DNA from: Candidatus Nanopelagicus hibericus
GTDB lineage: Bacteria; Actinomycetota; Actinomycetes; Nanopelagicales; Nanopelagicaceae
Length of the DNA stretch: 64,000 nucleotides
NCBI RefSeq assembly: GCF_002288005.1
Contig: NZ_CP016771.1
Coordinates: 248,001 to 312,000 of the forward strand
Direction of reading: 5' to 3'
The notes beneath the pieces were generated by a model that was not told where the DNA came from, searched no databases, and worked only from the letters and a program-made list of their open reading frames with translations. The first letter of the stretch is position 1. The number at the start of each line of letters is the position of its first letter. Of the stretch, positions 1,346-16,221 are shown in pieces. Made by a program: the position numbers and the translations under genes.

Positions 1346-2248
1346 ATGCGCGCTAAATTCGTAATGAGTGAGGTGGGCATTGGCCTGCGCCGAAATCTAA
1401 CTATGACCTTTGCAGTGGTAATTACGGTAGCAATCTCATTGTCATTACTTGGTGTTGGCTTACTTGCCAACTCGCAGGTACGGGTAATGAAGGATTACTG
1501 GTATGACAAGATAGAGGTTTCAATATTTCTATGTGGCTCACTCTCTGAAGGTTCATCTTGCGCCAAGGGAGTAATTACCCAAGAGCAAAAAATAGGAATT
1601 CAACGAGATCTCCAAGCACTTCCTGTCGTGCAAGAAGTTTTCTATGAATCACAATCTGAAGCATTTAAACGTTTTCAAGAGAGATTTGAAGGATCAGCGA
1701 TTGCGCAAAATGTCACACCTGATCAGCTACCAGAATCTTTTAGGGTAAAACTTAAAGATCCCACAAAGTTTGCGGTAATAGAAAGCGCCTTTGCCGGCCG
1801 TCCTGGTGTTGATATTGTGCAGGACCAACAAGCGATCTTAGAAAAATTCTTTAGATTACTTGGAGTACTAAGAAATGGTGCCTTGGCAATTGGCGCCGCA
1901 TCAGTACTTACCGCAGCTTTATTGATTAGTAACACCCTGCGCCTAGCCGCCTTTAACCGCAGAAGGGAGACTGGGGTAATGAAATTAGTAGGTGCCTCTA
2001 GTTTTTCTATCCAACTTCCATTTTTATTAGAGGGCGTATTTGCCGCCTTATTTGGTTGGGTATTTTCAGTTGGCGTATTAGCTGGCTTTAAAGCGGTGGT
2101 TGATTCTAGGGTGGCACCACTTTTGACATTTACCAATTACTTCACCTGGCAGGATGTTTGGGTGGCATCTGCTTGGTTGCTGCTTACTGGATTAGTAGTC
2201 TCATCAATTGCCTCAGTAATTACCCTTCGTAAATATTTAAAGGTGTAA
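1346..2248 (+). CDS. ftsX: Cell division protein FtsX (permease-like)
   Basis: Integral membrane partner of FtsE that carries the conformational signal to cell-wall hydrolases. The 300-aa protein has one N-terminal transmembrane helix (about 19-42), an extracellular domain with two cysteines (CGSLSEGSSC, about 63-72) as in actinobacterial FtsX, and three C-terminal helices in the FtsX/MacB permease fold (from about 175 on). The start is the ATG at 1346. It sits directly after ftsE and before smpB, the usual actinobacterial order. Confidence 0.95.
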   Translation: MRAKFVMSEVGIGLRRNLTMTFAVVITVAISLSLLGVGLLANSQVRVMKDYWYDKIEVSIFLCGSLSEGSSCAKGVITQEQKIGIQRDLQALPVVQEVFYESQSEAFKRFQERFEGSAIAQNVTPDQLPESFRVKLKDPTKFAVIESAFAGRPGVDIVQDQQAILEKFFRLLGVLRNGALAIGAASVLTAALLISNTLRLAAFNRRRETGVMKLVGASSFSIQLPFLLEGVFAALFGWVFSVGVLAGFKAVVDSRVAPLLTFTNYFTWQDVWVASAWLLLTGLVVSSIASVITLRKYLKV

Positions 2249-2282
2249 CACCAGCGCTTAAATAAGAATTGGGGGCTTACTT

Positions 2283-2801
2283 ATGGTCAAGGAGTTAGGC
2301 AGAAAAGTAATTGCCCAAAACAAAAGCGCTCGCCATGATTATTTTATTGAAGAGGTCTATGAGTGCGGGCTGGTATTAACTGGCACTGAGGTCAAATCTT
2401 TAAGAGCTGGCCGTGCCTCATTAACAGATGGTTATGCGATGGCTAGAGATGGCGAGATCTGGGTAAGTGGCATTCATATTCCTGAGTACAACCAAGGCTC
2501 TTGGACCAACCACACCCCACGTAGGGATCGAAAGCTGTTGCTTAATCGCCGGGAGATTGCGCAGATTATTGGCGTGATCAAACAAGGTGGATTGACATTG
2601 ATCCCACTCTCACTTTACTTCAAAGATGGCAAGGCAAAGGTTGAGATTGCAGTTGCTAAGGGTAAGAAGGCACATGACAAGCGAAATACATTGATGGAGC
2701 AACAGATGACCCGTGAGGTTAATCGAGAGTTATCACGGCGTAAATCTGGCAAAAGTACGGCTACAAGTAAGCGCAAAAAATCAGATGCTGATTACGATTA
2801 G
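2283..2801 (+). CDS. smpB: SsrA-binding protein SmpB
   Basis: Small RNA-binding protein that escorts tmRNA to stalled ribosomes for trans-translation. The 172-aa sequence shows the family signature [32 protein letters not shown] near the N-terminus and [11 protein letters not shown] before a basic C-terminal tail that occupies the decoding centre. The tail ([22 protein letters not shown]) is somewhat longer than in proteobacterial SmpB. The ATG start at 2283 has a GGGGGC-type site upstream. Its RNA partner ssrA begins 86 nt after the stop codon. Confidence 0.97.
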
Positions 2802-2887
2802 TAGCGCAATTAACAGTATTTAAAGATTGCCTGTAAAATAACTCCTTCAAACAACTAAATATAGAAATATAAATTCGCTTTAATCTT

Positions 2888-3259
2888 GGGGGTGAACGGT
2901 CTCGACTTTAGTCGTTACTTCAAGGCAAGCGGGCCGAGGAAGCCGTGATGATCTCGTTAACCACAAAAACATGGCAAATTATAAGCGCAAGTAAAACTGC
3001 CGCTGATTATCAACTAGCTGCCTAAGCTAGCTCTGTTATCCGTTACCCGAAGTTTGTTCTCGCCTTCGGATCTAACGTCGCTAGAGGACTTACCCCTAAC
3101 CGTGTTACGGAGGTTAATGGGGACATAAATCTGTAACTGAGTCCGCAAACTACTTGTGCATGTGAGAGTTTGGACTGAGAAAGCGTTAATTGCACTACGC
3201 CCGTAGAAACTTTGAAATAGTGCTAGAGGACCCGGGTTCGATTCCCGGCACCTCCACCA
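2888..3259 (+). ncRNA. ssrA: tmRNA (one-piece), with proteolysis tag
   Basis: Transfer-messenger RNA that rescues stalled ribosomes. The 5' arm GGGGGTG (2888-2894) pairs with CACCTCC (3249-3255) to form the acceptor stem, followed by a discriminator A and encoded CCA (3257-3259). A T-arm GGTTCGATTCC precedes it. The tag reading frame starts at the resume codon GCA (2987) and ends at TAA (3023-3025), giving ASKTAADYQLAA. The terminal LAA is the conserved degradation signal, although QLAA replaces the usual ALAA. The 372-nt length fits a one-piece tmRNA. It lies just downstream of smpB. Confidence 0.95.
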
Positions 3260-3260
3260 T

Positions 3261-3533
3261 TTATTTTTTTGGAATTACTTTTATTATTCGATAGATCGCA
3301 GTAGCAGCAGTAATGACTCCAAAGCTGCCCATGATTCTTGCACCAATTGAATTAACGCTAACAACTAGGGCAATTCCGAAAAATACTGCTATTAGTGCAA
3401 TTAAAAATGCAAGGACCTTAATTACGGCAAGTGGTAGCAATCTTTGTGGCAAAAAAGTAAGTGCCAATGAGATTGGCCCACCTAAAACAGTTAACGAGAT
3501 AATCAAAGTAGCAAGCAGTGCTAGTGATTCCAT
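3261..3533 (-). CDS. Small hydrophobic membrane protein, unknown function
   Basis: A 90-aa protein with about three predicted transmembrane segments (roughly 3-28, 31-53 and 60-84) ending in a short basic tail VIPKK. No recognised family. Its stop codon lies 2 nt beyond the tmRNA 3' end on the opposite strand, so the genes are convergent without a visible terminator between them. The ATG start is at 3533. It is separated from aceE by a hairpin terminator and probably has its own promoter. Existence as a gene is supported only by the coherent hydrophobic profile. Confidence 0.6.
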   Translation of the reverse strand: MESLALLATLIISLTVLGGPISLALTFLPQRLLPLAVIKVLAFLIALIAVFFGIALVVSVNSIGARIMGSFGVITAATAIYRIIKVIPKK

Positions 3534-3570
3534 GGATTAAGAGTATCTGATCTATATCTCTGCATAAATA

Positions 3571-3605
3571 GCAAAAGGGCCAAGAATTTCTCTTAGCCCT
3601 TTTGC
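3571..3605 (-). terminator. Intrinsic terminator downstream of aceE
   Basis: Inverted repeat GCAAAAGGGC (3571-3580) / GCCCTTTTGC (3596-3605), extended inward by AAGA/TCTT around a small loop, giving about 14 bp with one mismatch. Read on the minus strand the right arm ends in CCCTTTTGC then TATTT, a weak U-tract. It lies about 95 nt after the aceE stop and just before the start of the small membrane-protein gene. The symmetry could also let it work on the plus strand. Confidence 0.65.
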
Positions 3606-3700
3606 TTACCTAATCTGAGAATGACTAACTCGCTAAAAATATAGCACAGATGATTTTTTAATTTAAGATCTTAAAACTACCAACAGTAGTTATTTAGCTG

Positions 3701-7530: not shown

Positions 7531-7602
7531 GGGTGGTTAGCTCAGTGGTAGAGCGCCTCGTTTACACCGAGGATGTCGGGGGTTCGAAACCCTCACCGCC
7601 CA
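7531..7602 (+). tRNA. tRNA-Val (anticodon UAC)
   Basis: Cloverleaf with acceptor GGGTGGT (7531-7537) / ACCGCCC (7595-7601), discriminator A (7602), D-arm AGCTCAGTGGTAGAGC, anticodon stem CCTCG/CGAGG around loop TTTACAC, giving anticodon TAC (7563-7565), and T-arm GGGGGTTCGAAACCCTC. CCA is not encoded. Its last bases are repeated at 9048 and 10473, which marks it as an integration target. Confidence 0.97.
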
Positions 7603-7604
7603 CA
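7587..7604 (+). repeat. att-like direct repeat, copy 1 (3' end of tRNA-Val)
   Basis: AAACCCTCACCGCCCACA covers the T-arm 3' half, acceptor 3' strand, discriminator and two following bases. The same 18 bases recur at 9048-9065, and the last copy (10473-10492) matches 20 bases including the preceding CG. Duplicated tRNA 3' ends are the classic footprint of site-specific integration. Confidence 0.85.
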
Positions 7605-7613
7605 GTTAATAAA

Positions 7614-8903
7614 TTAAGATTTAGTTATTTCTACTGTATCTCCAGAGTCATCTGATTTAGTAACTTTAACCGTTATGCCCTCAGTGGTTACAGATTCACC
7701 GAGTGCTCTTGGTGCCTTTAAATAACGAGGATCACTGCTTACATCAGATGGAAATACCCTTACCGGACCTTGACCAGATTGAATTGACGAGTCAACTACA
7801 TAAACTAACGCTCCGGATTTTGCGATGTTTTTATCTATGCCGATTGCTCTTCTACTTTCAATTACAACAGCCTTAGTTCTAGAAATTGGAATAACAACCG
7901 CTTTAACTCCACCAGAAGTTTGAACTGGTGAGATTAATTCAGTCGATTTTGCATCCTTTAAACACTTAATTTGTGAGTCATTAATCCAGCCTAAATTCCA
8001 CCTTTCAAAAGCAAACAGACTTGGTGCATTACTTTCATAACTACTGAAACCCATATAACTAAACTCGCCAGTGTATCTAAAGCCATCGTAGCGATTAGCC
8101 GAGTTACTTTGAGTAAATGCGTATAGATCTACTAATCCTAAGGTGTGAGTGACCTCGTGGTTTAACCAGATAGATTTCCAATTGTTTAGATCATAGGCTG
8201 ATGTAGCACCATTAGAGATATATTTACCATCAAGAGTTATGCCATTTTTTCTAATTGCTGCAAACGCAGGTCCTGAATTTCCAATCCCAGTCGAATCTGG
8301 ATTCGCTAAAATAATTAGGCTATCGGTTTTACTGAAGTCGATATCAACATCAGCTAACTTTGCTGCCTCAGTGATGTACTCTCGATGTTTAATAAATGTC
8401 CAACCACCTGCAACGTAATCAGTTGACTTTTTACTCATGCGATACCACTTTAACTGTGGCTTGAATGTATAACTTAACTTTCCATAAGACATCTCATTAA
8501 ATACATCAGCAGATGGTGATATTCGAGCAAAGGCATCAGTAGGCGTCATACTTGCTGGTGAATCTGGAAAATCAACCATCACAACGGTGGATATCACACC
8601 TCCAGTTGATTTTAATCTTTCATCAATCCGTGGCCAGCCACCGATCGACACATCACCACGACCGTCAGCAACCGGCAATTTGCAGTCAGCTAATAAATCA
8701 ACTGCGACTACTGCGCTAACTCCCTTATCCCAAACTAACTTTTTTCCAGACTTTATGCAGGTAAATGTCTTTGCGCCAACTACAGATTTACTTCCCACCT
8801 TTGTGCACTTTGCACCGGCCTTAGCTACGGCATGAGAGGTGGAGAGTTGCGATGAAAGTAGAAGGGGTGTAATCACTAGTAAGGCAATAAGGCGGATCCC
8901 CAT
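7614..8903 (-). CDS. Secreted zinc metalloprotease, M6-like
   Basis: A 429-aa exported protein. Residues 1-26 form a signal peptide ending at AHA-type residues (STSHAVA). Residues 30-58 form a small Cys-containing module (KCTKVGSKSVV...FTCIKSGKKLVW) of a type I associate with exported actinobacterial proteins. A metallopeptidase domain follows, with the zinc motif H249-E250-xx-H253-xx-G256-xx-D259 (HEVTHTLGLVD), as in M6/immune-inhibitor-A-like enzymes. It is the only gene of the first islet bounded by tRNA-Val repeats and lies opposite the tRNA. The stop codon is about 10 bp from the first repeat. Substrate unknown. Confidence 0.75.
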   Translation of the reverse strand: MGIRLIALLVITPLLLSSQLSTSHAVAKAGAKCTKVGSKSVVGAKTFTCIKSGKKLVWDKGVSAVVAVDLLADCKLPVADGRGDVSIGGWPRIDERLKSTGGVISTVVMVDFPDSPASMTPTDAFARISPSADVFNEMSYGKLSYTFKPQLKWYRMSKKSTDYVAGGWTFIKHREYITEAAKLADVDIDFSKTDSLIILANPDSTGIGNSGPAFAAIRKNGITLDGKYISNGATSAYDLNNWKSIWLNHEVTHTLGLVDLYAFTQSNSANRYDGFRYTGEFSYMGFSSYESNAPSLFAFERWNLGWINDSQIKCLKDAKSTELISPVQTSGGVKAVVIPISRTKAVVIESRRAIGIDKNIAKSGALVYVVDSSIQSGQGPVRVFPSDVSSDPRYLKAPRALGESVTTEGITVKVTKSDDSGDTVEITKS

Positions 8904-9047
8904 GAATTAAGCCTAATTGAATCGAGCATTGTGAAATAGGGCTAGATATAAGAATTCACTCTTTCTTACTTCAGATTTCTCGTGTAAGTTAACTTATTAT
9001 GACCCGACAATCTAAAAGTCGGGGAAGTACCCGAAAAAAGCGGAGTA

Positions 9048-9065
9048 AAACCCTCACCGCCCACA
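9048..9065 (+). repeat. att-like direct repeat, copy 2
   Basis: Exact 18-bp copy of the tRNA-Val 3' end (AAACCCTCACCGCCCACA), 1,461 bp downstream of copy 1. No tRNA body precedes it. It lies in the intergenic region upstream of the metalloprotease gene and downstream of the next islet's genes, so it separates two cargo modules. Confidence 0.85.
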
Positions 9066-9161
9066 CAGCACGCATAGTCACTTACTTTGGTAATTAATTT
9101 CAGGATGTAAGTCAGCAAAAACCTTTAAGGAAATAACTCCTATTTCACTAGTTCTATCGGC

Positions 9162-9605
9162 CTAATTCTTTTTTGCTAACGAAGCGATGAACAACAACGC
9201 CAATAAGTAAAAAGATGCCCCGTTTAGTGCTTCACCAGGCGGTGTTCCCGTCGAAGTTACACTCATCATCTGCCCGGCAATAAAACGCATAACTGGATCA
9301 AGGGCAAGAGTTAACAAAATCAATGGAGTTAATCCTGGATAACGGAAAAACAATACAAATAGAAGCACTGCAAGAATAAGTTGTATTGCCCCCCATTGGT
9401 GAAATATCGCAATTATGTTATCTCCGCCTGCAACGGATGTATCAATGCCAGCAATACTCTGAGCACCGCCATCTGCTGCAAAGAGGTGAATGCAACTGCG
9501 CACCACCATTACTAACATATAGATGGCTGTGACTATACGAATTGCTCGAAAACCCTCAAAACTTGTGGGGTTGTTTGGAAGTAGTTTTTTGAAATCAAAC
9601 TTCAT
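9162..9605 (-). CDS. Small membrane protein, unknown function
   Basis: A 147-aa protein with about four predicted transmembrane segments (roughly 22-42, 62-88, 90-108 and 130-144) and a cytoplasmic-looking N-terminus MKFDFKKLLPNNP. Family not recognised. It follows the LmeA-like gene by 7 nt in the same direction, so the two are probably one operon. Both sit between repeat copies 2 and 3, as cargo of the second tRNA-Val islet. Confidence 0.65.
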   Translation of the reverse strand: MKFDFKKLLPNNPTSFEGFRAIRIVTAIYMLVMVVRSCIHLFAADGGAQSIAGIDTSVAGGDNIIAIFHQWGAIQLILAVLLFVLFFRYPGLTPLILLTLALDPVMRFIAGQMMSVTSTGTPPGEALNGASFYLLALLFIASLAKKN

Positions 9606-9612
9606 AAATTAA

Positions 9613-10275
9613 TTATAAACCTAAATTACCAAGTTGGACATTAGTGCCATACATTTTCACAGCTAGTCCTTTACTGCTTAGTGATACTGATTTTACTTTA
9701 AGCCCTTTAGGGGGCGTAAGGCTGCGTTGGCTCTTACTTTTGATCTGAGTCTGAAGATCTGCTGGCAATGATGAAGCGGGAATCTCATTACCGAAAAGTG
9801 AAACACTTTTAAGTTCAAAATAGAGTTGATTATTTGAGTACTTTGGAATCAGACTTGCTTTACCCATTCCACCAGCTCCGGCTGCAACCTGCAAGGTATT
9901 ACCCACAATCTGTGCATCACCGAACTCCGATGCCTTTGCAATAGTTGATACAGGAATTGTGGCAGTTATTTCTAAAGAGCCAATAAGTGTTGGCTTGGAC
10001 TTACTGATATTTCCTGCTGAAATTTTTATTGAAGAATCTGTATTGCTTTCCTTTAAAGGATATTTTTCTATATCGATATTAGCTAACTTGATTGAATCTG
10101 AAGTTATATTACTTGCTATATCAGTTAGTGGAATAGATGCGCTAACCCCAGAAGCATTTGGCATCTCTCGCTTTACGCCTGAAGCAATCTGAGATGAAAT
10201 GTATTTTTCAAGACCAAACACTCCAGCGAAAATGGATAAAACTAGTATTGATGTGGCGATTATTTTTATTTTCAT
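9613..10275 (-). CDS. LmeA-like (DUF2993) exported lipid-binding protein
   Basis: A 220-aa protein with an N-terminal signal anchor (about 3-24, IKIIATSILVLSIFAGVFGLE) followed by a beta-rich region. The ISSQIASGVKREMP segment and the alternating hydrophobic pattern fit the DUF2993 family, whose mycobacterial member LmeA binds phospholipid and matures mannan-type lipoglycans in the periplasm. That role is family knowledge, not shown here. First gene of a probable two-gene operon in the second islet. Confidence 0.65.
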   Translation of the reverse strand: MKIKIIATSILVLSIFAGVFGLEKYISSQIASGVKREMPNASGVSASIPLTDIASNITSDSIKLANIDIEKYPLKESNTDSSIKISAGNISKSKPTLIGSLEITATIPVSTIAKASEFGDAQIVGNTLQVAAGAGGMGKASLIPKYSNNQLYFELKSVSLFGNEIPASSLPADLQTQIKSKSQRSLTPPKGLKVKSVSLSSKGLAVKMYGTNVQLGNLGL

Positions 10276-10472
10276 CAGCGGAACTTAACAGTGCAAACTG
10301 ATAAATTTAATGGATTTGGTGTTAATAGCCTGTGAATTTGGATAGAAAATAATGTCGCCTATATCTGACCTATATCCGTTCAATATCTAGTAAATGTCAG
10401 ACCAATTGACTAATATGGGTGCTAAGTCAAGAAAAAGTAAATATATGAAATGGATGAATGAGGAAAATCAGA

Positions 10473-10492
10473 CGAAACCCTCACCGCCCACA
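10473..10492 (+). repeat. att-like direct repeat, copy 3 (20 bp)
   Basis: CGAAACCCTCACCGCCCACA repeats the last 18 bases of the tRNA plus the first two bases after it, 1,427 bp beyond copy 2. It closes the second islet and lies just upstream of the dioxygenase gene. Being the longest match to the tRNA, it is a good candidate for the original outer attachment site. Confidence 0.85.
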
Positions 10493-10514
10493 TAGAAAAA
10501 TAACAAGGAGCAAA

Positions 10515-11675
10515 ATGAAGCCAGCCAAGATCGCAGATTATGGAATAACTGAAGAGTTTGGTTATTTGCCATCTTATGAACCTGCCCAATCACTTTCTGC
10601 TGGCAATGAGGAGTGGGATCAGTTTGGTAAGGATCTTCCTAAGTTATTAATGAGCACAAACTTTAGAGCAAAGGTTAAAGCACTACCTAAATTTAATATT
10701 GACAAGTTAAAAGGTGATGCTGAGATTCAAAGAGCGATGCTGGTTTTAAGTTATATCGGACAGTCATATCAATGGAGTGAGAACACCCCAGCCACTGTAA
10801 TGCCAGCAAACTTAGCTCTTCCTTGGTATGAGGTTGGTAAGTTAGTAGGACGGCCACCGATTCTTTCTTATCAAAGTTATGCCTCAGATAATTGGCGCCG
10901 CTTTGATAAATCTGGCCCAATTGAGTGCGGCAATATTGGCTTGGCCCAATGTTTCTTAGGCGGGCAAGATGAAGAGTGGTTTATTTTAATTCACATCGAT
11001 ATTGAGAAAAAAGCTGGTAAATCACTTAAAGCAATTGAAGATGCACAGGCTGCTGTAGCTTCAAATGATGCTGATCAGTTAGAGGCATCACTTACAAAAC
11101 TACGTGATGCATTAGCTTCGATGTATCAAGTATTGGGCAGAATGCCAGAAAGATGTGATCCATATATTTACTTCCACCGAGTTCGTCCATATATCTTCGG
11201 TTGGCGCAATAACCCATCATTGCCAGATGGTGTGGTCTATGAAGGAGTGGATGAGTACAAAGGAGTAGGGCAAAAGTTTAGGGGAGAGACCGGAGCGCAG
11301 AGTGCGATTATTCCAGCGATGGATGGTGTCCTTGGAATTGAACATGAGCGAGATGAATTACGTGAGTATTTAATGGAGATGAGAACTTATATGCCACCAA
11401 AGCATGTGGCATTTATCCAAGCGGTAGAAGCTGGTCCATCTGTTCGCAACTTTGTCACAACTACTAAGCGCACATCTTTAACCTCAGTATTTAATGAGTG
11501 TGTTGAGTTAGTAGCTAGTTTTAGAGCAATGCATCTTGAGTATGCCGGCACATATATTCACGCTCAAGCACAAGCAACACCTGGTAATCCATCTGCAGTA
11601 GGAACTGGTGGCACACCATTTATGACCTACCTGCGCAAGCACAGAGATGAGACAAAGAAGCAAACCATCTCTTAA
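10515..11675 (+). CDS. Indoleamine 2,3-dioxygenase family haem protein
   Basis: Haem dioxygenase that in characterised relatives opens the indole ring of tryptophan to N-formylkynurenine. The 386-aa protein shows family blocks YGITEEFGYLP at the N-terminus, FRGETGAQSAIIPAMDGVLGIEH, YMPPKHVAFI and GTGGTPFM near the C-terminus. The proximal haem ligand aligns with H340 (SFRAMHLEY). Start chosen at the ATG at 10515, with AAGGAG 5 nt upstream; a longer in-frame extension to 10458 runs through the att repeat and is unlikely. A kynurenine pathway is not visible in the window. Bacterial members may use other indoles. Confidence 0.85.
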   Translation: MKPAKIADYGITEEFGYLPSYEPAQSLSAGNEEWDQFGKDLPKLLMSTNFRAKVKALPKFNIDKLKGDAEIQRAMLVLSYIGQSYQWSENTPATVMPANLALPWYEVGKLVGRPPILSYQSYASDNWRRFDKSGPIECGNIGLAQCFLGGQDEEWFILIHIDIEKKAGKSLKAIEDAQAAVASNDADQLEASLTKLRDALASMYQVLGRMPERCDPYIYFHRVRPYIFGWRNNPSLPDGVVYEGVDEYKGVGQKFRGETGAQSAIIPAMDGVLGIEHERDELREYLMEMRTYMPPKHVAFIQAVEAGPSVRNFVTTTKRTSLTSVFNECVELVASFRAMHLEYAGTYIHAQAQATPGNPSAVGTGGTPFMTYLRKHRDETKKQTIS

Positions 11676-11700
11676 ATCACCAAGCAGGTACGCTTTGTTA

Positions 11701-12663
11701 ATGCTCACTAGGTTTGCCAAAATCTTTTCTGCCAGCTCATCCCTTACTAAATTAAATGATATTTCAAAGGGTGAGCGGGTTGTAAAAAGTAAAACCCTTC
11801 AGTTCTACTCCGCTAATCGAAATATTGGTAATTATCTACCGGTGCTAGCAATTCATCAGATGTTAGATCAAGAGTTAGATACCTGGAATATCCATAAATC
11901 CCCAGTTGATTGGGAGTTTGTTCATAAAAACTATGATCAGGTAATTGTTGGTGGCGCAGGGTTATTGCACTCAGTCTTTGAAAAGTTTTGGGTTGATCTA
12001 GATAAGAACTGCAAGTTGCCAATCATTATCTGGGGAATTGGGGTGTGCCTACCTGATAATGATTCAGTTAAAGGTGTGCCAAAGGCAGTTGTGCAATCAG
12101 TATTTAATAGAACAACTTTTGCAAATGTAAGGGATGAGTTAACTCGGGATTTTTACGATCTAAAATCTGAGATCTCCATAACCGCCTGTCCCACCTTGGT
12201 CTATGTGGCCAATAAATTTAAGGTGGCACCAAAGAGTGATGTTGGAAAGAGGATCTTGCATAGCTCACATGTGGATTTAGAGCCAACTGGTGCAGCTGGT
12301 GAGATAGAGAGAGTAATCAAAGAGTCAGGTTTTGATTACAACTTTACGGATAATATCGAGAGCACAAAAAATCCATTGAAGAAGAACTTAAAGATGTATC
12401 AAGATTGCGATTATGTAGTTACCACCCGATTACATGGCGCCATCATCGCCTACGCCTTTAATCGACCATATATTGCAATCTCATTTGATCCAAAAATTGC
12501 AGCCTTTAATAAGTTATATCGCGGCGGGATATGTATTACTGAGCTCTCGCAATTACCAACGGCAATAAGAAGTGATCAATTTAAGGTATCTAGGGATTAC
12601 AAAGCCGAGCTTGCAAAGATTAAGCAGTTTGGTGCGCAGATTAAGGCTGCAATCACCAGGTAG
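11701..12663 (+). CDS. Polysaccharide pyruvyl transferase-like protein
   Basis: Resembles the polysaccharide pyruvyl transferase family (PF04230), which adds ketal pyruvate to surface glycans. Visible features are NRNIGNYLPVLAI near the N-terminus, the QVIVGGAGLLHS block, IIWGIGV, and the C-terminal TTRLHGAIIAYAFNRPYIAISFDPK segment typical of the second Rossmann half. From the ATG at 11701 it has 320 aa; the frame is open back to 11647, overlapping the dioxygenase, but no ribosome site supports that. No other glycan genes are adjacent, so acceptor and role are unknown. Confidence 0.75.
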   Translation: MLTRFAKIFSASSSLTKLNDISKGERVVKSKTLQFYSANRNIGNYLPVLAIHQMLDQELDTWNIHKSPVDWEFVHKNYDQVIVGGAGLLHSVFEKFWVDLDKNCKLPIIIWGIGVCLPDNDSVKGVPKAVVQSVFNRTTFANVRDELTRDFYDLKSEISITACPTLVYVANKFKVAPKSDVGKRILHSSHVDLEPTGAAGEIERVIKESGFDYNFTDNIESTKNPLKKNLKMYQDCDYVVTTRLHGAIIAYAFNRPYIAISFDPKIAAFNKLYRGGICITELSQLPTAIRSDQFKVSRDYKAELAKIKQFGAQIKAAITR

Positions 12664-12749
12664 AAAGGGTGGGCAAAGATCAGTAAACTCATCCTTTGTA
12701 ATACAACTAAAAAAGTAAAGATTTAAACAATTAAAACAGGGGGTGCATT

Positions 12750-13475
12750 GTGCAGGCATCTACCGAGCAGCAAGGCCTAATTTTAGAACTTCAGCTCCTA
12801 GATAATGAAATTATGCAGGCAAATACCAAACTTAAATCCTTACCTGAAATAGAACAATTACTTCATATTGAAAAAAGAGTTACCGCCGCCAATGATGAGC
12901 TATCAGTAGTAAAAACGGAATCTGATCAAATTGCACTTGAGCTTCGCCGTGGTGAGGTTGATGTTGAAACTGTTACAGATCGTATTAAAAAAGATGAGGC
13001 CAGATTATCCTCCGGCAATGCCACCCCAAAGGAGTTAGAGCAACTCCAACATGAGGTGGAAACCTTAAAAAAGCGCCAAGAGTCATTGGAGGAGATTGAG
13101 CTAGAGATCATGATTAGAAATGACGCAGTTATTGCTCGTACTAATACTTTAAGTACTGATCTAGCCTCTCTTCAAACCTTAAAGGATGAGATTTCAGGCC
13201 GATTACAAAGTGCAACCGATGAAATAAATAAGGTAATTGCAGATAAAAATACAGCACGTAATGCAGTTGCTGGCAAAATTGAAAAAGCATTGTTAGATCT
13301 TTATGAAAAGATTAGAGGAAATGGTGGTGGAGTTGGCGCTGCAGCCTTAGTTGGTAATAAATGCAACGGCTGTAATCTGGCAATTAACGCAGTTGAGATG
13401 GATCGAATTAAATCCTTAGCCAAAGATGAATTACTTAGATGTGAAGAGTGCCGGCGGATATTGGTAAGAATTTAA
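12750..13475 (+). CDS. C4-type zinc ribbon coiled-coil protein
   Basis: A 241-aa protein: an N-terminal antiparallel coiled coil (about 1-185, rich in E, K, L and Q heptads) followed by a zinc ribbon with two CxxC pairs (KCNGCN... and RCEECRR) at about 203-235. This is the DUF164/CT398-like family, of unclear function but thought to be nucleic-acid associated. A GTG start at 12750 is preceded by AGGGGG. It abuts the RNase HI gene with no gap, an arrangement also known in mycobacteria (Rv2229c-Rv2228c), implying a shared transcript. Confidence 0.9.
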   Translation: MQASTEQQGLILELQLLDNEIMQANTKLKSLPEIEQLLHIEKRVTAANDELSVVKTESDQIALELRRGEVDVETVTDRIKKDEARLSSGNATPKELEQLQHEVETLKKRQESLEEIELEIMIRNDAVIARTNTLSTDLASLQTLKDEISGRLQSATDEINKVIADKNTARNAVAGKIEKALLDLYEKIRGNGGGVGAAALVGNKCNGCNLAINAVEMDRIKSLAKDELLRCEECRRILVRI

Positions 13476-13880
13476 ATGCCAAGACATTTTATAATTACCG
13501 CAGATGGTGGCAGTAGAGGAAATCCAGGCAAAGCAGCCTATGGCGCAGTGGTTTATGAAAATGATCAAATCCTTAAAGAGGTTGGTGCATCAATTGGAAT
13601 TGCTTCAAATAATGTGGCTGAGTATGAAGGTTTAATTGCAGGACTTAAGGCGGCTAATGAGATTGATCCAGCAGCCACAATATTGGTGAAGATGGATTCA
13701 AAGTTAGTTGTTGAGCAGATGAGTGGAAGATGGAAGGTAAAGCATCCAAATATGCAAAAGCTGGCAAAACAAGCCTTTGCTACCCATGATCCAAAACTTG
13801 TCTCATATCAGTGGATTCCCCGCGAGGAGAACTCACATGCAGATTCAATACTTAATGATGTATTAGATAGCGGAATGTAA
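13476..13880 (+). CDS. Ribonuclease HI
   Basis: Degrades the RNA strand of RNA-DNA hybrids. The 134-aa protein keeps all four catalytic acids: D10 (TADGGSRGNPG), E49 (NVAEYEG), D74 (VKMDSKLV) and D123 (NSHADSIL). It is a single-domain form; the mycobacterial relative Rv2228c carries an extra C-terminal phosphatase domain, which is absent here. The ATG directly follows the zinc-ribbon gene's stop codon. rnpB starts 40 bp downstream. Confidence 0.93.
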   Translation: MPRHFIITADGGSRGNPGKAAYGAVVYENDQILKEVGASIGIASNNVAEYEGLIAGLKAANEIDPAATILVKMDSKLVVEQMSGRWKVKHPNMQKLAKQAFATHDPKLVSYQWIPREENSHADSILNDVLDSGM

Positions 13881-13907
13881 GCATTTCCTTCTTAAAAATA
13901 TCTTCGG

Positions 13908-13913
13908 TATCAT
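13908..13913 (+). promoter_or_regulatory. -10 box TATCAT of rnpB
   Basis: TATCAT matches TANNNT and ends 7 nt before the predicted rnpB 5' end at 13921, the correct distance for a transcription start there. No strong -35 box is evident. Confidence 0.5.
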
Positions 13914-13920
13914 TAGCACT

Positions 13921-14272
13921 GAAGAGTCGTCTGGATCATCGCGTTATGAAAATACCGAGGAAAGTCCGGACTCCAAAGAGTGAGGTGATGGCTAACGGCC
14001 ATCCAGGGAAACCTGCGGGATTAGTGCCACAGAAAATAAACCGCCATTAGCAATAATGGTAAGGATGAAACGGTGGTGTAAGAGACCACCAGCATTTACG
14101 GCAACGTATATGGCTAGGTAAACCCCACCTGGAGCAAGACCAGATTGTTGGCATTTGAGAGCTACTCGCTCGAGTCAACGGGTAGGTTGCTTGAATCTGT
14201 AAGCAATTACAGATCTAGATGGATGATGATCTCTCGCAAGAGAACAGGATCCGGCTTATAGGGCGACTCTTC
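13921..14272 (+). ncRNA. rnpB: RNase P RNA, class A
   Basis: Catalytic RNA that matures tRNA 5' ends. The 5' GAAGAGTCG (13921-13929) pairs with CGACTCTTC (14264-14272) as helix P1. Conserved elements are GAGGAAAGTCCGGACTCC (13958 on) in P3/P4, the GAAACCTGCGGG region, CCACAGAAAATAAACCGCC, GGTAAGGATGAAACGGTG, and the 3' element GGATCCGGCTTATAGG that closes P4. The size of about 352 nt fits an actinobacterial class A RNA. A terminator hairpin follows at 14281. Its 3' end is duplicated at 14940-14961. Confidence 0.95.
14250..14271 (+). repeat. Direct repeat, copy 1: 3' end of rnpB
   Basis: The 22 bp starting TCCGGCTTATAGG and ending CGACTCTT match 14940-14961 with one difference (G at 14263, C at 14953). 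This copy is part of the functional rnpB, where it forms P4/P1. Duplication of a stable RNA 3' end suggests insertion of the intervening 690 bp. Confidence 0.8.
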
Positions 14273-14280
14273 TTCCAATT

Positions 14281-14315
14281 AGGTGGGCGTAGGTTAAAAC
14301 TGCGCTCACCTTTCT
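14281..14315 (+). terminator. Intrinsic terminator after rnpB
   Basis: AGGTGGGCG (14281-14289) pairs with CGCTCACCT (14303-14311) over 9 bp including one G-U, with a 13-nt loop, followed by TTCTGC. It starts 9 nt after the mature rnpB 3' end. It lies inside the islet delimited by the rnpB 3'-end repeats, so the terminator itself may have come with the insertion. Confidence 0.65.
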
Positions 14316-14379
14316 GCATATTCGTTGTACAAGTTGTTACATAACCTGTCGCAGATTTAGATGTTTTTATGGGGAATCG

Positions 14380-14399
14380 ATGGGCAGATATGGGCAGAT
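14380..14399 (+). repeat. Two tandem 10-bp units ATGGGCAGAT
   Basis: ATGGGCAGAT occurs twice back to back in the region between the rnpB terminator and the SnoaL-like gene (14316-14467). It could be a regulator site or slippage. Nothing else was recognised in this gap. Confidence 0.4.
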
Positions 14400-14467
14400 T
14401 TTGACTACAAACCACTTCTTGGTGTTTAGTATTGTCGATGATAACTCCTTGAAAGGTACAAAAGCAC

Positions 14468-14929
14468 ATGCTTATTTACAGTTCAATCGTTGAGAAATTG
14501 GTACGTAAAACATTTCTTGCCGTCCAAAATCACAATTATGAAGAAGTGTTAAAGGGTGTGTCCTCTACCAACCTCACCCATCGTTTTGCAGGTCCTAACT
14601 CACTGGGTGGCATCCGACATGACAAAGAAGCTATGAGTCGATGGTTCAAGCGAGTAGGGACTGTGCTGCCAAATCTTAAGTTTGAGGTTACAAGTGTTTT
14701 AGTTCAAGGAGGGCCATGGAACACAACAGTTATTGCCCGATGGGTAGCAACCTGCAATCTTGAAAATGGAGAACCTTACGTAAATCCTGGAATCCATGTA
14801 ATCAAACTGCGCTGGGGCAAGGCATATGACTTCGATGTTTATGAAGATACTTTTGCGGTTACAGCAGGGCTAGAGAAACAAGCAAAGTCGGGTATTGCAG
14901 AAGCTAGTGCTCCCCAAATTGTGAGCTAA
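14468..14929 (+). CDS. SnoaL-like (NTF2 fold) protein
   Basis: A 153-aa single-domain protein with an N-terminal helix (VRKTFLAVQNHNYEEVL), an AMSRWFKRVGTVLPNLKFEV segment and C-terminal beta strands (VIARWVATCNLENG...GIHVIKLRWGK). This pattern fits the SnoaL-like / NTF2-like superfamily, which holds polyketide cyclases, isomerases and many uncharacterised small-molecule-binding proteins. No substrate can be assigned. It is the only gene inside the rnpB-repeat islet. The ATG at 14468 has a GAAAGG-type site upstream. Confidence 0.65.
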   Translation: MLIYSSIVEKLVRKTFLAVQNHNYEEVLKGVSSTNLTHRFAGPNSLGGIRHDKEAMSRWFKRVGTVLPNLKFEVTSVLVQGGPWNTTVIARWVATCNLENGEPYVNPGIHVIKLRWGKAYDFDVYEDTFAVTAGLEKQAKSGIAEASAPQIVS

Positions 14930-14939
14930 TCTGAACTTT

Positions 14940-14961
14940 TCCGGCTTATAGGCCGACTCTT
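14940..14961 (+). repeat. Direct repeat, copy 2: rnpB 3'-end remnant
   Basis: Carries CCGGCTTATAGG then CGACTCTT without the rest of rnpB, 690 bp after copy 1, with one mismatch. It is followed directly by TTACTACAATTAATTA and the YciI-like start codon, with no terminator. A plausible reading is that this is the old rnpB end left behind when the islet brought a replacement end. Confidence 0.8.
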
Positions 14962-14976
14962 TACTACAATTAATTA

Positions 14977-15303
14977 ATGAAATTCATTATCAACGTAATA
15001 GATGATCAATCAAACTCTGGCAGCCCAGCTGAAATGGCTGAGATAAATAAGTTTAATGATCAACTGCGAGTCAATGGTCAATTTATCTTTGCTGGCGGCC
15101 TTGCTGCTCCAGAGAGTGCTGATGTAATCGATAATCGAAATGATGCGAATTTGTCCACTGGGAAACCACTATTTGCTAACAAAGAGAACTTCTCTGGTTT
15201 TTGGTTGATCCAGGCAGAAAGTATTGAAGTGGCGAGAAAGTTAGCATTTGCTGGATCTAAGGCTTGTAATCGTAAGGTTGAGCTTAGGCCGCTTCTTGGT
15301 TAA
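14977..15303 (+). CDS. YciI-like protein
   Basis: A 108-aa protein of the YCII-related family (dimeric alpha+beta, ferredoxin-like fold). It shows MKFIINVIDDQ at the first strand, a helix AEMAEINKFNDQLRVNG, FAGGLAAPESADVI, and FSGFWLIQAESIEVARKLA before a conserved PLLG end. Actinobacterial relatives are often annotated as DGPF-domain proteins of unknown role. The start codon lies 15 nt after the rnpB remnant repeat. Followed closely by a DMT transporter gene (27 nt). Confidence 0.75.
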   Translation: MKFIINVIDDQSNSGSPAEMAEINKFNDQLRVNGQFIFAGGLAAPESADVIDNRNDANLSTGKPLFANKENFSGFWLIQAESIEVARKLAFAGSKACNRKVELRPLLG

Positions 15304-15330
15304 TGTAGACAAAGCCCTTACTATCTTGTA

Positions 15331-16221
15331 ATGGTTAGAGTAAAAACATTTGCACCACTCATATTTGTTTTACTCTGGAGCACAGGGTTTATCGGCGCTA
15401 AGTACATACTTCCATATGCGCAGCCCTTTGTTTTCTTAACTATTAGATACTTCTTCGCCACTCTTGTTTTGGTTTTAATTGCAAAAGCACTAAGAGAGCC
15501 GCTTCGTATTAGTAAGGCGGCAATAAAGCAATCAATGATTGTGGCGCTTTTCTTGCATGTTATTTATATCGGTGGGGTTTTCTATGCAATATTTATTGAT
15601 ATTCCAGCGGGAATTACTGCAGTAATTGTTAGCTTGCAACCAATTTTAGTTTCAGCACTCGCTATTCCGTTACTGGGGGAGAAGCTTTCATACCGCCAGG
15701 TATTTGGGTTAGCACTTGGTTTTATTGGTGTGCTCTTTTTGCTCTCACCAAAGTTATTTGAAGGAGATCTCTCCACCGGCTTTTCAACCTTTGGAATTAT
15801 CTGCTGTGTTCTAGCTCTCCTTGGAACAACTGCTGGTTACTTGCTGCAGAAAAAAGGGGGAGCAGATATTCCATTCTTAGCTGGAACCGCAGTGCAATTC
15901 GCTACCTCAACAGTTATTTTTGCAATTACATCTGTAATCTTTGAGCCACTTAAAGTAAATATCACTTTGGAGTTTGTCTTAGCCTTAAGTTGGATTGTGT
16001 TAGCTCTTTCAATTGGCTCTATATTTTTACTCTTTTACCTACTAAGGCATGACAGTGCCTCATCTGTTTCCAGCCTTTACTACCTGGTCCCACCCCTTGC
16101 TGCGGTGCAGGCCTACTACTTTTTTGATGAACGAATTAAGGGCATTGGTTTAATTGGTATGGCTCTAGCTGCTTTAGGTACTTTAATTGTTACTAAAAAT
16201 TCAAAAACAGCCGGGCATTAA
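15331..16221 (+). CDS. EamA/DMT-family transporter
   Basis: A 296-aa integral membrane protein with about ten predicted helices arranged as two EamA repeats (about 8-135 and 150-288). Typical features are FVLLWSTGFIGAKYILPYAQP at the start and TAVIVSLQPILVSALAIPLLGEKLSYRQVFGLALGFIGV at the end of repeat one. Members export or import metabolites such as amino acids or nucleotides; specificity cannot be read. Its stop codon directly abuts the stop of the opposing GNAT gene. Confidence 0.88.
   Translation: MVRVKTFAPLIFVLLWSTGFIGAKYILPYAQPFVFLTIRYFFATLVLVLIAKALREPLRISKAAIKQSMIVALFLHVIYIGGVFYAIFIDIPAGITAVIVSLQPILVSALAIPLLGEKLSYRQVFGLALGFIGVLFLLSPKLFEGDLSTGFSTFGIICCVLALLGTTAGYLLQKKGGADIPFLAGTAVQFATSTVIFAITSVIFEPLKVNITLEFVLALSWIVLALSIGSIFLLFYLLRHDSASSVSSLYYLVPPLAAVQAYYFFDERIKGIGLIGMALAALGTLIVTKNSKTAGH

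Follow-up and report, generated by a model that had tools for sequence, protein, structure and literature searches.

Two non-autonomous cassettes are the probable occupants of a tRNA-Val gene

Two short segments next to the tRNA-Val(TAC) gene of Candidatus Nanopelagicus hibericus are probably non-autonomous cassettes that integrated site-specifically at the 3′ end of this gene (attB) and are moved in trans by a family of tyrosine integrases (probability about 0.72). They lie in the 64,000-nucleotide stretch analysed here (the window), which corresponds to positions 248001-312000 of a genome consisting of a single contig of 1,223,088 bp. The tRNA gene (7531-7602, forward strand) was identified by ARAGORN and the RF00005 covariance model. 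It contains the proximal copy of the core repeat in its 3′ end (7585-7604), and an exact-match search located a second copy at 9048-9065 and a third at 10473-10492, both on the forward strand. The sequence AAACCCTCACCGCCCACA is exact in all three (7587-7604, 9048-9065 and 10475-10492). Over 20 nucleotides, copy 3 matches the tRNA completely (100%) and copy 2 at 90% of positions, and the repeat reaches 2 nucleotides beyond the mature tRNA 3′ end. The starts of the repeats are 1,461 and 1,427 bp apart, which are the sizes of the two segments. Chance repeats could be ruled out, since 100 dinucleotide shuffles gave an expectation of 0 for AAACCCTCACCGCCCACA against the 3 copies found, and the whole genome contains only these three, even when one mismatch is allowed.

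Open reading frames and a Pfam scan revealed no recombinase in either segment, and no integrase remnant was seen in them with open reading frames, Pfam or PHROGs. The only tyrosine recombinases of the genome are two, XerC- and XerD-like; other recombinase types were not searched for. A preliminary description of this locus had already reported the recurrence of the last 18-20 bp of the tRNA, both spacings, their non-random origin and the lack of an internal recombinase, and each of these points was confirmed.

The content of the site differs among related genomes

We scanned the repeat pattern family-wide in 296 genomes, denoted by G numbers with G000 as the genome of the window. Within the genus, the genes upstream of tRNA-Val are conserved and the downstream content differs in nearly every genome. 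G007 presents an empty site, in which tRNA-Val is directly followed by the distal flank. The 400 bp downstream of its tRNA repeat match the distal flanks of G008 (381/399), G000 (375/399) and G005 (368/399), and show no match to the proximal sequence of these three genomes. In the window, the distal flank carries a gene of the indoleamine 2,3-dioxygenase family (10515-11675, forward strand; PF01231, 326 bits), which adjoins the empty site in G007. Several members of the genus have it as the distal neighbour, and others, G020 among them, lack it. In G002, cassette 2 is located directly at the tRNA, cassette 1 is missing and the distal flank is 94.9% identical to that of the window, so that G002 and G000 constitute a before/after pair for cassette 1.

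Different cargo was found between the same repeats in G004, G005 and G008. G004 has four repeats and three cassettes, the cargo of G008 includes a gene resembling a member of the enolase superfamily, and G005 carries two other genes (the G008 and G005 cargoes were named by eye). More clustered repeat copies were present in G034, G063, G071, G075, G082, G090, G223, G282 and G283, and the repeat usually tracks the tRNA variant of the genus. In addition, six draft contigs (in G015, G016, G023, G070, G085 and G206) begin or end at most 2 bp from the repeat, as expected if the downstream sequences differ within a population. Altogether, the empty site, the G002/G000 pair and the alternative cargoes favour the mobility that had been suspected from the window, and no vertical pattern was apparent.

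Integrase-bearing elements share the core and have related arms

In G295, a 5.1 kb element lies between the tRNA and a right arm of the type found in cassette 2 (type 1). Besides a tyrosine integrase of 283 aa (PF00589, 62 bits), it encodes an HNH protein, an acetyltransferase, a methyltransferase and a restriction enzyme of the EcoRV type. Full integrase elements at this tRNA measure 5-7.5 kb, and the G295-type integrase was matched in 13 of the 296 genomes. It adjoins tRNA-Val(TAC) in G295, G191 and G034, tRNA-Lys(CTT) in G154 and G093, and tRNA-Val(GAC) in G162, G190 and G144. The integrase is not an IntI, as it scored 27.3 bits against a cut-off of 265, and the two host recombinases also remained below that cut-off.

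The arms connect these elements with the integrase-less cassettes. The left arm of the G034 integrase element shares 95% identity with its counterpart in G021, which has no integrase, and 89% with that of G004, and the left arm of cassette 2 clusters with the left arms of integrase elements. Similarly, the right arm of cassette 2 resembles the right arms of the elements of G295 (82% over 66 bp), G191 (79% over 43 bp) and G154, the last at tRNA-Lys (80% over 55 bp). G034 combines an integrase element at tRNA-Val with two type-1 arms on another contig. The suggestion of the preliminary description that the cargo is moved in trans is therefore favoured, because an integrase-bearing family with the same att core and related arms exists, and we infer the mobilisation in trans itself from these shared features.

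Two integrase elements (G093:C21, L182, 10024-12266; and L141, reverse strand, 11281-13150) carry different type II restriction-modification pairs, so elements of this kind may be small mobile defence islands.

The arms are conserved among cassettes with unrelated cargo

The type-1 right arm of cassette 2 (10355-10474) belongs to a motif of about 137 bp that is 84-96% identical between near relatives whose cassettes have unrelated cargo, and the similarity ends at the arm edge. Seventeen arms of this type group into one cluster, whose members come from several genera. With G034, a member of another genus, identity is 95.6% in the arm and 71.8% in the core genes. Cassette 1 ends in a different right arm (type 2, 8997-9045), present in 7 of the 296 genomes including that of the window. 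In G033, a unit located at tRNA-Ser(GGA) has a type-2 arm in front of an exact copy of the end of this tRNA, and in G054 such an arm precedes a tRNA-Lys-like core, indicating that the arms are modular relative to the tRNA. The common carrier envisaged in the preliminary description thus holds only loosely, as the two segments differ in the type of right arm and each type is found on several unrelated cargoes.

Hairpins were found in both kinds of arm. A two-tier stem, placed about equally far from the core, was present in the left arms of integrase elements and in those of two cassettes without an integrase. Its outer stems vary in sequence yet stay complementary (TAGTTA/TAACTA, TGTGAA/TTCACA, GATGAAC/GTTCATC with a bulge, GTGGA/TCCAC, GAACT/AGTTC and ACTTAC/GTAAGT). 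The strong left-arm stems had folding z-scores of about -4 to -6, in a set that was picked by hand and so does not amount to a blind test. The left arm of cassette 2 (9066-9119) keeps the outer stem, ACTTAC (9080-9085) with GTAAGT (9107-9112), and its fold is not significant (z 0.3); folding of the left arm was weak or absent in the integrase elements of G093 and G190. Type-2 right arms contain a stem with compensatory changes, which in cassette 1 is formed by CCCGAC (9003-9008) and GTCGGG (9018-9023). The arm hairpins may have a role in recombination or in tRNA 3′ processing.

Two other functions for the right arm were considered. A short open frame at 10395-10495 (MSDQLTNMGAKSRKSKYMKWMNEEN...) lies in the type-1 arm, runs into the repeat and is absent from some arms. 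As a conserved small protein, MSDQLTNMGAKSRKSKYMKWMNEEN found no support: judged by eye, the frame is shortened or lost in G295, G191 and one arm of G071 while the DNA motif persists. A cargo promoter was rejected, since the arm sits 5′ of some cargo genes and 3′ of others (G008, G005). In G078 (C4, L136, reverse strand, about 8541), a type-1 arm with a core lies between ribosomal L1- and L10-like genes, with no tRNA-Val there; it may represent an ectopic insertion or a mixed bin, as the contamination of G078 is 6%.

Cargo of the two cassettes

Cassette 1, including its distal core repeat, occupies 7605-9065. Its sole gene (7614-8903, reverse strand) encodes a 429-aa secreted protein without a Pfam match that TIGR03296 places among the M6-type metalloproteases, with 103.9 bits against a curated cut-off of 110.8; the secreted metalloprotease announced for this segment was thus recovered. 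Secreted proteins with the same N-terminal region as this protease form arrays in G003 (C52, L054, reverse strand, 10559-16194), where the array follows tRNA-Val and has no internal repeats, and in G002 (C1:397000-400000).

Cassette 2 occupies 9066-10492, likewise with its distal core repeat. Its left end recurs with different cargo in G005 (88.9% identity over 72 bp, core included). The cargo consists of a 147-aa membrane protein (9162-9605, reverse strand), predicted as an open reading frame with no match in Pfam, PHROGs or NCBIfam, and a 220-aa exported protein (9613-10275, reverse strand). The latter matches PF11209 (LmeA) weakly, with 18.1 bits against a cut-off of 27.3. Consequently, of the LmeA-like plus membrane protein pair described before, the membrane protein stands and the LmeA assignment falls below threshold. 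PHROGs returned no match for the cargo of either cassette, so the phage genes that would mark a prophage or a phage satellite were not found there.

Other tRNA genes with 3′-end copies

Among the 38 tRNA genes of the window genome, 3′-end copies in the downstream stretches were found only for Val(TAC), Arg(ACG) and Val(GAC). The tRNA-Arg(ACG) gene has an exact 3′-end copy, stretching into the anticodon arm, 1,962 bp downstream, and the insert (L206, G000:C1:1164500-1180400, 1699-3679, reverse) encloses a 512-aa secreted protein. The exact copy of the tRNA-Val(GAC) end lies 535 bp downstream and encloses a 122-aa membrane protein (L208, G000:C1:516500-532300, 1837-2390, reverse); this is the same tRNA that adjoins integrases of the family in the three genomes named above. 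Three of the 38 tRNAs therefore carry inserts without an integrase.

Proposed mechanism and alternative explanations

In the mechanism that we propose, a unit would consist of a left arm, one or two cargo genes, a right arm and the core repeat. A tyrosine integrase would recombine the core with the 3′ end of tRNA-Val(TAC), probably through a circular intermediate, with the arms as its putative binding sites. Integration would restore the tRNA, with its last 18-20 bp duplicated at the far end of the insert. Each subsequent unit would enter next to the tRNA, so that the newest unit would be the closest and cassette 1 would be younger than cassette 2. The integrase, for which the window genome holds no candidate, would be supplied in trans by the integrase-bearing elements of other Nanopelagicales, which use the same tRNA and have related arms.

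Several observations weigh against this proposal. Only 13 of the 296 genomes yielded the integrase family, and none of these is among the searched members of the genus of the window. No integrase-bearing member with a type-2 arm appeared in the 296 genomes, a left arm was not recognised in cassette 1 and the right-arm match to G191 is short (43 bp). Moreover, G007 is 63% complete and the genes downstream of its site are fragmented, so that one empty site rests on a poor assembly. Finally, the action of the integrase in trans, the binding of the arms and the circular intermediate are all points that we infer from comparison of genomes.

The strongest competitor, which we nevertheless regard as unlikely, is that the segments are eroded tandem integrations, in which full elements lost their own integrase after insertion and left immobile remnants. 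It draws on the full elements of 5-7.5 kb at the same tRNA and on signs of fusion. G005 contains an internal type-1 arm without a core repeat (C11, L056, 7811-7940), as if the middle repeat between two joined cassettes had been lost, and in G002 cassette 2 has no distal repeat. In contrast, compact units that have intact ends and no integrase are found repeatedly, with varying cargo, in several genera, and the window cassettes show no integrase remnant. The enolase cassette of G008 also matches 1,376 bp of G027, a genome of another genus, at 90.8% identity (core identity 71.4%). An ectopic insertion in G027, considered because a core-like sequence precedes the enolase gene, was discarded: this match lies within the reading frame of the upstream gene and the distal core is lost.

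It is still less probable that RecA-dependent homologous recombination moves the cargo, through the arms, the core genes or the N-terminal domain that the secreted proteins have in common, and that site-specific insertion was only a remote origin. Cassette 1 is indeed a mosaic, whose protease is 87% identical to G004 over 1,081 bp and whose last 349 bp are 83% identical to G063, of another genus, and the arms are long enough to be used as homology. Yet the boundaries fall exactly at the tRNA 3′ end, integrase elements with the same core exist, and the differences seen at the G007 empty site and in the G002/G000 pair comprise whole units. Given the G004-like and G063-like pieces, homologous recombination probably also reshuffles cargo, and it is likely a contributor and not the main route.

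The host XerC/XerD, although the only tyrosine recombinases detected in the genome, are very improbable agents of recombination between the repeats: the core is a tRNA end, which we take not to be a dif-like site, and the related arms are those of elements that encode a dedicated integrase.

Returning to cassettes moved in trans, a viral vehicle between cells was sought in IMG/VR. The core sequence was present in 11 contigs, none of which was seen with arms, and no IMG/VR contig with a right arm or an integrase relative was found. The nearest phage integrase (32%) is that of Streptomyces phage Mulchroom, which has been described as a satellite (PMC10690885).

Significance and comparison with known systems

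If correct, the combination of fixed tRNA ports, minimal units and an integrase held in common would account for the way in which a genome of 1.2 Mb exchanges secreted and surface functions while having almost no mobility genes of its own. Since sequences now define the core, the arms and the candidate integrase, in complete genomes, single-cell genomes and metagenome bins, the process can be tested. Going further, it is conceivable, although we hold this only tentatively, that the Nanopelagicales share a dispersed, integron-like exchange system without an integron. Integrase-less single-gene cassettes would then be a stable, selected class with a two-armed modular site, the arms being alike while the core fits Val, Ser or Lys tRNAs; rare integrase elements would serve them in trans and the recombination signal would include the arm hairpins.

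As in tRNA-targeted additive cassette islands, the tRNA end is copied at the far side of the insert and the content varies at the same site in close relatives. Stacks of cassettes bounded by tRNA ends have been described in Ca. Actinomarinales (PMC7771536) and Ca. Methylopumilus (PMC10872708). The Actinomarinales cassettes resemble those of the window in being small, in using several tRNAs, in having a partial tRNA copy at the end of the insert, in their exchange between genera and in their host, a streamlined aquatic actinobacterium. They belong to another order and habitat, and the available portion of that account names neither an integrase, a word absent from its text, nor conserved arms, whereas both are defined here. 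The additive island fGI-2 of Ca. Methylopumilus resembles our site in its streamlined freshwater host and in variable cargo lying between recurring copies of a tRNA end, which in fGI-2 are 20 bp long and derive from tRNA-Lys; in contrast, fGI-2 inserts range from 330 bp to 42 kb, the host is a proteobacterium and the same portion of the source reports no arms or partner integrase (PMC10872708). Tycheposons, in the passages on them in that source, are likewise tRNA-associated and bring cargo into streamlined hosts with a tyrosine recombinase (PMC10872708). They span 4-200 kb with the recombinase inside, unlike the units of 1,461 and 1,427 bp in the window, which contain none.

Integrase-less tandem islands are known from Dehalococcoides, where 15 of 31 ssrA-specific islands lack an integration module and have been suggested to be cis-mobilizable elements (CIMEs) (PMC3146451). 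These islands share with our cassettes the tandem arrangement, the 20-bp copies of an RNA gene end, the frequent lack of an integrase and a conserved motif beside the repeat. They differ in their serine recombinase, tmRNA target and larger size, as opposed to a tyrosine integrase, tRNA targets, units of 1.3-2.6 kb and two longer arms here (PMC3146451). The window cassettes have the flanking att repeats without an integrase that characterise CIMEs. As for the descent by deletion that applies to CIMEs, related arms do occur on integrase elements, yet no remnant of other mobility genes was found in the window units. CALIN arrays (clusters of attC sites lacking integron-integrases) also comprise single-gene units without their own recombinase that are thought to be moved in trans (PMC11389934). 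Integrons use IntI and attC sites (PMC11389934), whereas here the integrase is not IntI and the core is a tRNA end.

We found no description of this Nanopelagicales cassette system in the open-access literature, and one may exist elsewhere. Compared with the systems above, the novelty appears to lie in the definition of two conserved arms and of a partner integrase family, in the pairing of a single arm type with several tRNAs and in the occurrence of such small units in the Nanopelagicales.

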